A stretch of DNA of 64,000 bases, from positions 5,008,001-5,072,000 of the forward strand of contig NZ_SOBN01000001.1 of NCBI RefSeq assembly GCF_004365705.1, written 5' to 3'. Of this stretch, positions 27,811 through 33,171 are shown piece after piece. The translations under genes were made by a program, and so were the position numbers. The DNA comes from Streptomyces sp. 846.5 (lineage in GTDB: Bacteria > Actinomycetota > Actinomycetes > Streptomycetales > Streptomycetaceae). Every line of letters starts with the position of its first letter. The first letter of the stretch is position 1. Under the pieces are notes generated by a model. That model was given only the letters and a program-made list of their open reading frames with translations. It was not told the origin of the DNA and did no database searches.

Positions 27811-28323
27811 GTGCAGCTGACCAGGGTGCGGCGTGCGGCGGTGCTGCTCGCGGCGGGGGCGGTGGCGGCCGGGATCGTCTCGGTCGGCGGAGCGCAGGCC
27901 CAGGCCGCCGCCAGGCCGAAGGCCGCCAGACCGGTCGTCGCCGGCCGGTGTCCCACCACGATGGGCCGGATCGCCTGCGTGGACCTCACCCGCCAGCGGA
28001 TGTGGGTGCAGGTCGGCTCCCGGGTGGTCTTCGGCCCGGTCCCGATCAGGAGCGGCCGCCGGGGCCATGTGACCCGCACCGGGCTGTGGCACGTGTTCTG
28101 GCGCGACGCCCACCACCGGTCCTCTCTCTACGGCTACGTCGCCATGCCGTACAGCCAGTTCTTCTCGGGTGGTGAGGCATTCCACGGCGTCTTCGAATCG
28201 ATCGCCGCGCCGCCCGGCTCGCACGGCTGCGTCAACCTGAACAACCATGACGCCCGGGCGCTGTGGGGCGTGCTCAGGCTGCACGACCCGGTCGCGGTCT
28301 TCGGCCGCAAGCGCGGCACCTGA
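27811..28323 (+). CDS. Secreted L,D-transpeptidase (YkuD domain)
   Basis: This 170-residue protein has a signal peptide (RVRRAAVLLAAGAVAAGIVS to AQA) and a compact YkuD domain. The catalytic motif is complete: His125 in FHGVFES and SHGCVN with nucleophile Cys140. Such enzymes make 3-3 cross-links in peptidoglycan or attach proteins to it; without the usual Ig-like domains this is a minimal type. GTG 27811 follows GGGCAGG. It sits just before alr, which supplies D-alanine for the same wall. Compare the inactive homologue at 31851-32420. Confidence 0.9.
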   Translation: MQLTRVRRAAVLLAAGAVAAGIVSVGGAQAQAAARPKAARPVVAGRCPTTMGRIACVDLTRQRMWVQVGSRVVFGPVPIRSGRRGHVTRTGLWHVFWRDAHHRSSLYGYVAMPYSQFFSGGEAFHGVFESIAAPPGSHGCVNLNNHDARALWGVLRLHDPVAVFGRKRGT

Positions 28324-31011: not shown

Positions 31012-31053
31012 CCGTTGTCACTCCCTGCTGCTACCGAAAGGAACCGACCTCAC

Positions 31054-31572
31054 ATGGCCGACACCCCGACCGTCACCGCCGTCACCGTGCCCGACGCCGC
31101 GGCCATGCAGGACCTCGGCCGCGGGCTGGCCTCGCTGCTGCGCCCGGGCGACCTGGTGCTGCTCTCCGGCGAGCTGGGCGCGGGCAAGACCACCCTCGCC
31201 CGTGGCCTCGGCGCGGGCCTGGGCGTCCGCAGCGCGGTCACCTCGCCCACGTTCGTCATCGCCCGGGTGCACCCCTCGATGACCGGCGGCCCGGCCCTGG
31301 TCCATGTCGACGCCTACCGGTTGGGCGGCGGCCTGGACCAGATGGAGGACCTGGACCTGGACGTCTCGCTGCAGGACTCGGTGGTGGTCGTGGAGTGGGG
31401 CGAGGGCAGGGTCGAGGAGCTGTCCGACTCCCGCCTGGAGGTACGGATCGAGCGCGCCCTCGGCGACGAGGCGCCGGACGAGGGCGACGACGAGCGACGC
31501 GTCACCCTCACGGGTCTGGGCGACCGCTGGAGCGGCACCGACTGGGCCGTGCTGCAGCCGGCGGGCGTCTGA
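31054..31572 (+). CDS. tsaE: tRNA t6A biosynthesis ATPase TsaE
   Basis: TsaE drives the TsaB-TsaD complex that puts threonylcarbamoyl on A37 of tRNA. The P-loop GELGAGKTT is at residues 39-47, followed by AVTSPTFVIARVH and DAYRLGG. 172 residues from ATG 31054, which has GAAAGGA 11 bases upstream; an in-frame codon at 31015 lacks a ribosome site. The C-terminal third has an acidic insertion (GDEAPDEGDDERR). tsaB and tsaD follow after two intervening genes. Confidence 0.93.
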   Translation: MADTPTVTAVTVPDAAAMQDLGRGLASLLRPGDLVLLSGELGAGKTTLARGLGAGLGVRSAVTSPTFVIARVHPSMTGGPALVHVDAYRLGGGLDQMEDLDLDVSLQDSVVVVEWGEGRVEELSDSRLEVRIERALGDEAPDEGDDERRVTLTGLGDRWSGTDWAVLQPAGV

Positions 31573-31631: not shown

Positions 31632-31835
31632 ATGTCAGCGCGTGGGAAACCAGTCACGGGAGGCGACATGTCCGGAACGACCCCCCGCCGTGGTGGGGAG
31701 GAGCAGCCCGTCGGCGTGGCCGCCCTGCTCGCCGCGACCGGCGCGGCCGCGGCGGTGAGCACACCGCCGGCGGAGCCGGAGACGGCACGCGAGGAGCCCG
31801 AGCTGATCGTGGTGGAGTCGCGCGAAGCAGCCTGA
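31632..31835 (+). CDS. Small hypothetical protein
   Basis: 67 residues from ATG 31632, or 55 from ATG 31668, the latter having GGGAGG five bases upstream and therefore more likely (starts MSGTTPRRGGEEQPVGVAAL). Composition is Ala/Glu/Pro with a short hydrophobic GVAALLAATGAAAAV stretch and an acidic end (EEPELIVVESREAA). No function recognised. It sits between tsaE and the convergent YkuD-like gene. Confidence 0.5.
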   Translation: MSARGKPVTGGDMSGTTPRRGGEEQPVGVAALLAATGAAAAVSTPPAEPETAREEPELIVVESREAA

Positions 31836-31850: not shown

Positions 31851-32420
31851 TCAGGCGACGACGACGACCGTGCTGCCGACCACAGTGAACTCGTAGAGCG
31901 CCTGTCCGTCGCCCAGGGTCTCCCTGATGCCACCGGTCTTCTTTGTCGGGTCAGGGGCCGGGGTCGTGCCGTCCGTCGCGGAACTGAAGCCGAACACGGT
32001 GGTGCCGCGCTGGGCGAAGACGACGATGTTCTTGATCTCCACGCCGTCCGAGCCGGTCCGGGGGCCGGATCTGCGGCTGTTCACGTTGTAGGTCCCCACG
32101 GTGGGGCTGAGCGTGCTGGGCTGAACCGTGAAGGTCCGGGTCGCCGTGCCGGCCGCGTTCACCAGCCAGACCCGCTTGGCGCCCAGCGAGTACACCACCC
32201 GCTTGCCCGTCCCCGAGTTCGCCGGGACCGCGGCCGGCTTGGGCGAGGCGCTGGCCTTGGCGGAGGTCCCCGCCGAGGCGGAGACCGAGGCGCCCGGCTT
32301 GCCGGAAGCGGCCGAGGTCACATTGGCCGAGCTCTTGGCCTGCAGCGCCAGCACGGTGACAAGCGCGAGCGCAGACGCCGTCAGGGTGGTGACGACAGCG
32401 CCCGTACCGAACCTTGCCAC
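31851..32420 (-). CDS. Exported YkuD-like protein lacking catalytic residues
   Basis: 189 residues from GTG 32420, which has GGAGG five bases upstream; the upstream ATG 32465 has no ribosome site. An N-terminal hydrophobic segment (GAVVTTLTASALALVTVLAL) is followed by a Ser/Ala/Lys/Pro linker and a C-terminal domain. That domain reads KRVWLVNAAGTATRTFTV, VGTYNVNSRR, VVFAQRGTTVFGF, then GGIRETLGDGQALYEF and VGSTVVVV. This follows the L,D-transpeptidase order, but the expected HG and SHGC motifs are FG and KTGG, so both His and the Cys nucleophile are absent. I infer a non-enzymatic wall-binding or regulatory role. Confidence 0.75.
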   Translation of the reverse strand: MARFGTGAVVTTLTASALALVTVLALQAKSSANVTSAASGKPGASVSASAGTSAKASASPKPAAVPANSGTGKRVVYSLGAKRVWLVNAAGTATRTFTVQPSTLSPTVGTYNVNSRRSGPRTGSDGVEIKNIVVFAQRGTTVFGFSSATDGTTPAPDPTKKTGGIRETLGDGQALYEFTVVGSTVVVVA

Positions 32421-32496
32421 TCGATCCTCCAGCGGTGGAATGCCTGTGAAGTCCCAGCTTCTCATCCCGAATCCCGTGAACGTCTAACCTGGTGCC

Positions 32497-33171
32497 GTGC
32501 TTCTGCTTGCGTTCGACACCGCGACCCCCGCCGTCACCGCCGCGCTCCTGGACACGGACAGCGGGACGGTCCTCGCCTCCGCCGACCAGGTCGACGCCCG
32601 GCGCCACGGTGAGCTGCTGCTTCCCGCCGTCGACCGGGTGCTGCGCACCGCCGGCGTCGGCAAGGAGCAGCTCGGCGCGCTGGTGGTCGGTGTCGGCCCG
32701 GGTCCGTACACCGGGCTGCGGGTGGGACTGGCGACGGCCGCGGCGCTGGGGCACGCCCTCGGCATCCCGGTGCACGGCGTCTGCACGCTGGACGGCATCG
32801 CCCACGCTGCCCGCGCGGCGGGCCTGCAGGGCGCCTTCACGGCCGCGACGGACGCCCGCCGCAAAGAGGTGTACTGGGCCTGCTACGACGCCGCAGGGGC
32901 CCGTGTGGACGGTCCGCACGTGGACCGTCCGGCCGAGGTCGCCGAGCGGCTCGGGCAGCTGCCGGCGGTGGGCGCGGGCGCGCTGCTGTACCCGGAGGTG
33001 TTCCGCGACGTGCCCGCGGGCATGCCCGAGCACCAGTCCGCGGCGGCGCTGGCGACGTACGCGGCCGCCGAACTCGCCGCCGGACGCCCGCTGCTCCCGC
33101 CGACGCCGCTGTACCTGCGCCGTCCGGACGCCGAGGTGCCCAAGAACTACAAGACGGTGCTTCCGGCATGA
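32497..33171 (+). CDS. tsaB: tRNA t6A biosynthesis protein TsaB
   Basis: This 224-residue ASKHA-fold partner of TsaD starts MLLLAFDTATPAVTAALLD. The VGVGPGPYTGLRVGLATAAA motif is characteristic, as is ATDARRKEVYWACYD. GTG 32497 has no clear ribosome site, but TAACCT at 32484-32489 could be a -10 giving a leaderless transcript. Its stop overlaps the rimI ATG (ATGA), starting the tightly coupled tsaB-rimI-tsaD set. Confidence 0.94.
   Translation: MLLLAFDTATPAVTAALLDTDSGTVLASADQVDARRHGELLLPAVDRVLRTAGVGKEQLGALVVGVGPGPYTGLRVGLATAAALGHALGIPVHGVCTLDGIAHAARAAGLQGAFTAATDARRKEVYWACYDAAGARVDGPHVDRPAEVAERLGQLPAVGAGALLYPEVFRDVPAGMPEHQSAAALATYAAAELAAGRPLLPPTPLYLRRPDAEVPKNYKTVLPA

Follow-up and report, generated by a model that had tools for sequence, protein, structure and literature searches.

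A conserved protein beside the t6A genes of Streptomyces and its relatives has a predicted YkuD fold and lacks the L,D-transpeptidase catalytic residues

The locus and the layout of the protein

The window, that is the whole stretch of DNA analysed here, covers 64,000 nucleotides of Streptomyces sp. 846.5 (contig NZ_SOBN01000001.1). Within it, tsaE (31015–31572, forward strand; PF02367, E 1.1e-31) and tsaB (32497–33171, forward strand; PF00814, E 2.4e-27), both conserved, flank a gene of the reverse strand (31851–32420) that is divergent from tsaB and encodes a protein of 189 amino acids, hereafter called the dead protein for the losses described below. The t6A gene block also brings rimI and tsaD into its neighbourhood. 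An in-frame ATG at 32465 would lengthen the product by 15 residues to 204 amino acids (open reading frame by first start 31851–32465, reverse strand). The GTG start giving 189 residues is favoured because the homologues start at the VA[RK]-[IL]G stretch. A conserved open reading frame of 55 codons (31668–31835, forward strand) lies between tsaE and the dead gene; many Streptomycetaceae have relatives of it at this position, with the core LLA...AA.AVSTPP, a match falls on the opposite strand in a few genomes, and a Pfam search with it gave zero matches.

The dead protein has three parts, all given here on the reverse strand. Hydrophobicity and conservation place a transmembrane helix at residues 8–29 (32334–32399), and a 19-residue window above 1.6 on the Kyte–Doolittle scale was found in 45 of the 47 members of the dead set. 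It is followed by a low-complexity linker of Ala, Ser, Pro and Lys (residues 30–65; 32226–32333), marked by low conservation and low pLDDT, and by a domain assigned to the YkuD fold from the model, the structure matches and the profile alignment (residues 66–189; 31854–32225). The sequence-only reading had described an exported protein; hydrophobicity and the topology deduced from it agree with this in the form of a membrane-anchored protein whose domain would lie outside the cell.

Distribution of the gene and conservation of its place

A homologue of the dead protein was found in all 297 sampled genomes of the Streptomycetaceae, across all 17 genera. At the level of the order, 118 of 119 genomes were positive, the sole miss being a genome that is 81% complete, and both sister families carry the gene (13 of 14 genomes in f48, the single genome in f47). 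A pattern scan of genome contigs returned only two close relatives, both from Streptacidiphilus.

The placement beside the t6A genes, already pointed out from the window, is conserved through the order. Among 85 loci (L006–L090, which count some places twice), 73 lie about 1.5 kb or less from tsaE or tsaB, and the remaining 12, away from the tsa genes, include second copies. In the sister families, tsaB flanks 14 of 14 loci and tsaE 13 of 14. The dead gene is co-directional with tsaE and tsaB at L036 (1501–2070) and L089, where it is inverted in place; since the orientation differs in these few genomes, the divergent arrangement is not essential. A second copy elsewhere is present in many genomes of genus g9. 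Dead copies distant from the tsa genes (L037, L040, L044, L046, L055 and L085–L088) are in many cases second copies, and those that were aligned likewise lack His and Cys. One second copy has genes for a CofH-type radical SAM protein and a TPR/AAA protein as neighbours, which offered no hint of function.

In Streptomyces coelicolor, TsaE is SCO4747 and TsaD is SCO4752, according to PMC4932002, and the gene order between them makes SCO4749 the probable orthologue of the dead gene. PMC3765725 names SCO4749 among the genes in convergent pairs with overlapping transcripts on which the loss of RNase III has an effect. This would fit the convergent position of the dead gene and would imply that it is expressed. 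In the literature searched on SCO4747–SCO4749, on inactive Streptomyces YkuD proteins and on pseudoenzyme transpeptidases, a search outside which most subscription papers fall, no account of the dead protein was found.

The domain has a predicted YkuD fold

Searches with the window protein alone against Pfam, NCBIfam and the sequences of the PDB gave zero matches at E up to 10; the gathering score of PF03734 was accordingly not reached. Ten of the 47 relatives in the dead set matched PF03734 weakly (best E 8.1e-4), and an NCBIfam scan of the 47 gave scattered weak matches only. A profile of the relatives found nothing useful among PDB sequences. When the dead profile was compared directly with seven ordinary YkuD domains encoded in the same genome, the probability was only 0.4%.

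Comparison of a predicted structure with YkuD had been set beforehand as a check. The AlphaFold2 model, built with an alignment of the 47 relatives (A1), has a mean pLDDT of 80.6, with values above 90 through nearly all of the domain and low values in the linker. Each of the 50 Foldseek matches listed from the PDB is an L,D-transpeptidase or a YkuD-type protein, the best at E 5.9e-6; among them, 4xxt carries the title amidase/peptidoglycan-binding protein. With a second structural aligner, the model reached Z 14.9 to an L,D-transpeptidase of Xylanimonas (4lpq) and Z 13.3 to B. subtilis YkuD (4a1i), and 82 chains scored at Z of at least 8. The model thus shows the domain as a predicted YkuD beta-sandwich.

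Loss of the catalytic residues

The YkuD motif reads [hydrophobic]-G-[hydrophobic]-H-G-(S/T)...(S/T)-X-G-C-[hydrophobic]-R, with a triad of Cys, His and a small residue, as given in the 2025 review PMC12729407. From row counts and the profile alignment, the catalytic His aligns to Ser146 of the dead protein (31983–31985, reverse strand), where IGFH has become FGFS. The sequence-only reading had FG in place of HG: the loss of the His stands, and its site lies slightly beside that FG. By row counts, Lys161-Thr-Gly-Gly164 (31929–31940, reverse strand) aligns to [ST]-x-G-Cys, which agrees with the replacement of SHGC by KTGG read in the window, and Arg166 (31923–31925, reverse strand) is the retained active-site Arg two residues after the Cys site. 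The stretch GIRE...D..ALYEF...VVV is also retained in the window protein, as that reading had it. Such a combination of lost and kept motifs is no product of chance, for it recurs in 77 distinct Streptomycetaceae rows.

The state of these residues in orthologues was another check set beforehand. In 95 dead rows at the order level, which contain some repeated places (e.g. L001 and L074) and leave out five order-level loci (L016, L062, L063, L090 and L142), neither residue occurs once. The His site holds Ser in 76 rows, Asp in 10, Ala in 4, Glu in 3 and Gly in 2 (His 0/95), and the Cys site holds Gly in 91 and Ala in 4 (Cys 0/95). At the small Ser/Thr position before XGC, 88 of the 95 rows carry Lys, Arg, Gln or His and 3 carry Ser or Thr. 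The Arg two after the Cys site is present throughout the dead rows (95/95) and in 34 of 36 active rows. Inspected by eye, the sites of L016, L062, L063 and L142 likewise have no His or Cys. The interval from the His site to the Cys site is 18 residues in the dead protein, shorter than in most active sequences compared. L142 (genome G565, family f47) is the most divergent member in the order, with LAFETVPG and SRDVRQ at the two motifs, and its long branch lies at the base of the dead clade.

Descent from active relatives

At the class level, profile A1 matched 93 of 296 genomes at E up to 0.01, 28 of these 93 being Streptomycetaceae. The first 36 loci aligned from other families have both His (36/36) and Cys (36/36), and 24 further domains (22 loci L175–L196, L197 and the second domain of L117) all have GFH or GLH together with x-G-C. 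Both residues are intact in 60 of 60 domains from actinomycete families beyond the order, a count that excludes about nine weak class-level matches (E 0.0016–0.009). One candidate, L198, turned out to be a different YkuD protein. L117 (G537:C8:2598-3853) holds two consecutive active relatives of the subfamily in one genome.

This active actinomycete subfamily (A2: L093–L128 and others), whose Cys motif is SHGC, SAGC, SDGC or GGC, comprises the nearest relatives of the dead clade and shares with it the motifs GxGRRVVY, VWLV, PGTY, VRF and GF. It differs in having His and Cys in every copy read, in a variable N-terminal part and in a longer loop between the two motifs. Four active relatives that were scanned all scored above the PF03734 cut-off. 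In profile–profile comparison the dead and active sets matched at E 3.5e-35, with GFS aligned to GFH and TGGIR (GGIR) to HGCIR (GCIR), and the alignment follows the YkuD motif order down to the C-terminus. This alignment and the YkuD-fold model confirm the suggestion that YkuD order is followed up to the end of the domain.

In the absence of a single-sequence or direct-profile match, the YkuD assignment rests on these intermediate relatives and on the fold. A superficial resemblance, with the domain belonging to another fold, would account for the lack of a Pfam match to the window protein and the weak direct match to ordinary YkuD profiles. It is contradicted by the predicted structure, and the Foldseek matches, the Z scores, the PF03734 matches of the active relatives and the profile match all speak against it; we reject it as highly improbable.

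Forty dead rows stand on one side of a single branch of the tree (support 100/98). In a tree built without five active-site columns and with eight ordinary YkuD outgroups, the 22 dead rows form one clade (SH-aLRT 94) nested among active rows. The trees show, at the level of sequence, a dead clade that descends from active YkuD members with a single origin of the loss. The simplest reading would be that the catalytic residues were lost once, before the order split, and that the protein was then kept.

In one genus, two relatives with an intact SAGC (L096 and L127) occupy the corresponding locus, beside rimI and near hydrolase and alr genes; neither tsaB nor tsaE was seen adjoining them. Their presence at the matching place suggests that the locus, which this active lineage would still share with the dead gene, was once home to an active enzyme. 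No active copy of the subfamily was seen among 61 genomes of the Streptomycetaceae. Two candidates for such copies, L166 and L167, are ordinary YkuD proteins with SHGC. The genome of the window encodes 11 other YkuD proteins, every one with His and xGC in its translation. One of them (27811–28323, forward strand; H..SHGC by Pfam and translation) is the intact enzyme already noticed 3.5 kb away.

Purifying selection and newly conserved residues

The dN/dS ratio of the domain lies between 0.16 and 0.36 in the closest pairs and rises to 0.75 at longer distance, an increase that probably reflects biased, saturated synonymous sites. Inner stops are absent at nearly all listed homologue places in the family. 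Judged from these ratios and reading frames, the dead protein is evidently under purifying selection and not decaying. The loss of every catalytic residue is what one would expect of a decaying pseudogene product without function. However, such decay is contradicted by the conservation of the gene: 297 of 297 family genomes carry it, with few inner stops and low dN/dS in close pairs, the residues at the altered site are themselves conserved, and the gene is duplicated in many genomes. We therefore discard this explanation, whose probability we consider negligible. The gene is intact and no peculiarity of the window; it is present order-wide. A dead transpeptidase fold, as proposed from the window, is what emerges from the predicted fold, the loss of His, Ser and Cys, the active relatives, the single clade and the purifying selection.

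Row counts also brought out residues that the dead clade has made its own. Asp125 (32046–32048, reverse strand) is invariant in the clade, where all 77 distinct Streptomycetaceae rows and all 13 sister-family rows have it, and is found in 6 of 31 active rows, a set that omits five distant rows (L118–L122). Thr162 is present in 68 of 77 Streptomycetaceae rows and Gly164 in 73 of 77, both in 13 of 13 sister rows; Ser146 is present in 71 of 77, and the sister family has Asp or Glu instead. The protein might also be an enzyme with new chemistry, in which Asp125, Ser/Asp146, Thr162 and Arg166 would make up another active site in the former groove; the invariance of Asp125 and the conservation of Thr162-Gly-Gly164 are compatible with this. 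However, residue 146 varies, unlike a catalytic residue: Streptomycetaceae have Ser there, the sister family has Asp or Glu, and Ala or Gly also occur. Moreover, no Cys, His or Lys is found among the sites conserved in at least 85% of the dead rows. We consider new chemistry improbable.

Mean conservation is 2.36 bits per site in the transmembrane helix and 2.40 in the domain, as compared with 1.16 in the linker. The conserved helix sites are V10, L13, T14, A17, L18, V21, L24, A25, Q27 and A28, of which V10, T14, A17, V21, L24 and A28 are spaced as one face of a helix would be.

A candidate role and its rivals

With the YkuD L,D-transpeptidases (PF03734; B. subtilis YkuD, M. tuberculosis LdtMt1 and LdtMt2, E. 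faecium Ldtfm), the dead protein shares the predicted beta-sandwich fold, the motif order and the Arg two after the Cys site. Like it, several Gram-positive YkuD enzymes are membrane-anchored, according to PMC12729407. Unlike them, it has all three of the triad Cys, His and small Ser/Thr replaced, and it scores below family detection. DpaA (LdtF) of E. coli likewise has a YkuD fold that departed from transpeptidation with an altered site. DpaA is an active amidase without a conserved active-site Arg, as described in PMC12729407, whereas the dead clade retains an Arg and lacks Cys and His.

The account that we favour, and think probably right, is a pseudotranspeptidase that, tethered to the membrane, has come to bind or scaffold a wall peptide or a wall enzyme. 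Its ancestor, an L,D-transpeptidase anchored in the membrane, whose active form survives in other actinomycete families, would have lost its catalytic His, Ser and Cys in a single event before the order split and would have been kept as a pseudoenzyme. Its N-terminal helix would sit in the membrane and its flexible linker would span the space to the wall. The domain, with the active-site Arg and the new set of Asp125, Ser/Asp146 and Thr162-Gly-Gly164, would hold a ligand without reacting with it. Since the Arg and the surrounding motifs are kept, this ligand would most likely be a stem peptide of peptidoglycan or else a wall enzyme as partner, and the protein may tether, sense or regulate wall synthesis. 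The conserved transmembrane helix hints at a partner in the membrane. Of the two roles proposed from the window, peptidoglycan binder or inhibitor, the first is plausible; the findings suit a binder of wall peptides and a binder of a protein partner alike.

A different possibility is that the protein is a regulator and not a wall binder: the dead domain would pair with one or more intact L,D-transpeptidases, or with another wall enzyme, which it would activate, inhibit or position, the helix being part of the contact. The helix is as conserved as the domain, the genome offers 11 YkuD proteins with intact motifs, and in other families some catalytically dead paralogues are known to regulate enzymes (PMC6221367 gives an example), all of which would suit such a role. 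Against it, no intact enzyme in particular emerged as co-occurring with the dead protein, and the intact YkuD gene at 27811 counts as a neighbour and no more. We regard this possibility as rather unlikely.

The binder or scaffold that we prefer can be taken a step further, to a fixed membrane receptor for peptidoglycan peptides in the order of Streptomyces. The dead groove would read the state of the wall, or donor stem peptides, and signal through the helix to a partner, linking wall status to growth or development. We advance this step tentatively, as a possibility worth stating though rather unlikely.

That Streptomyces and its relatives universally keep a dead L,D-transpeptidase, ancient and under selection, suggests a non-catalytic use of the YkuD fold in the bacterial wall. 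It is a conserved protein without a name, missed by current family models, and its active cousins offer a comparison. If the receptor reading is true, the order would possess a shared wall sensor that escaped notice for lack of a family model able to recognise it.
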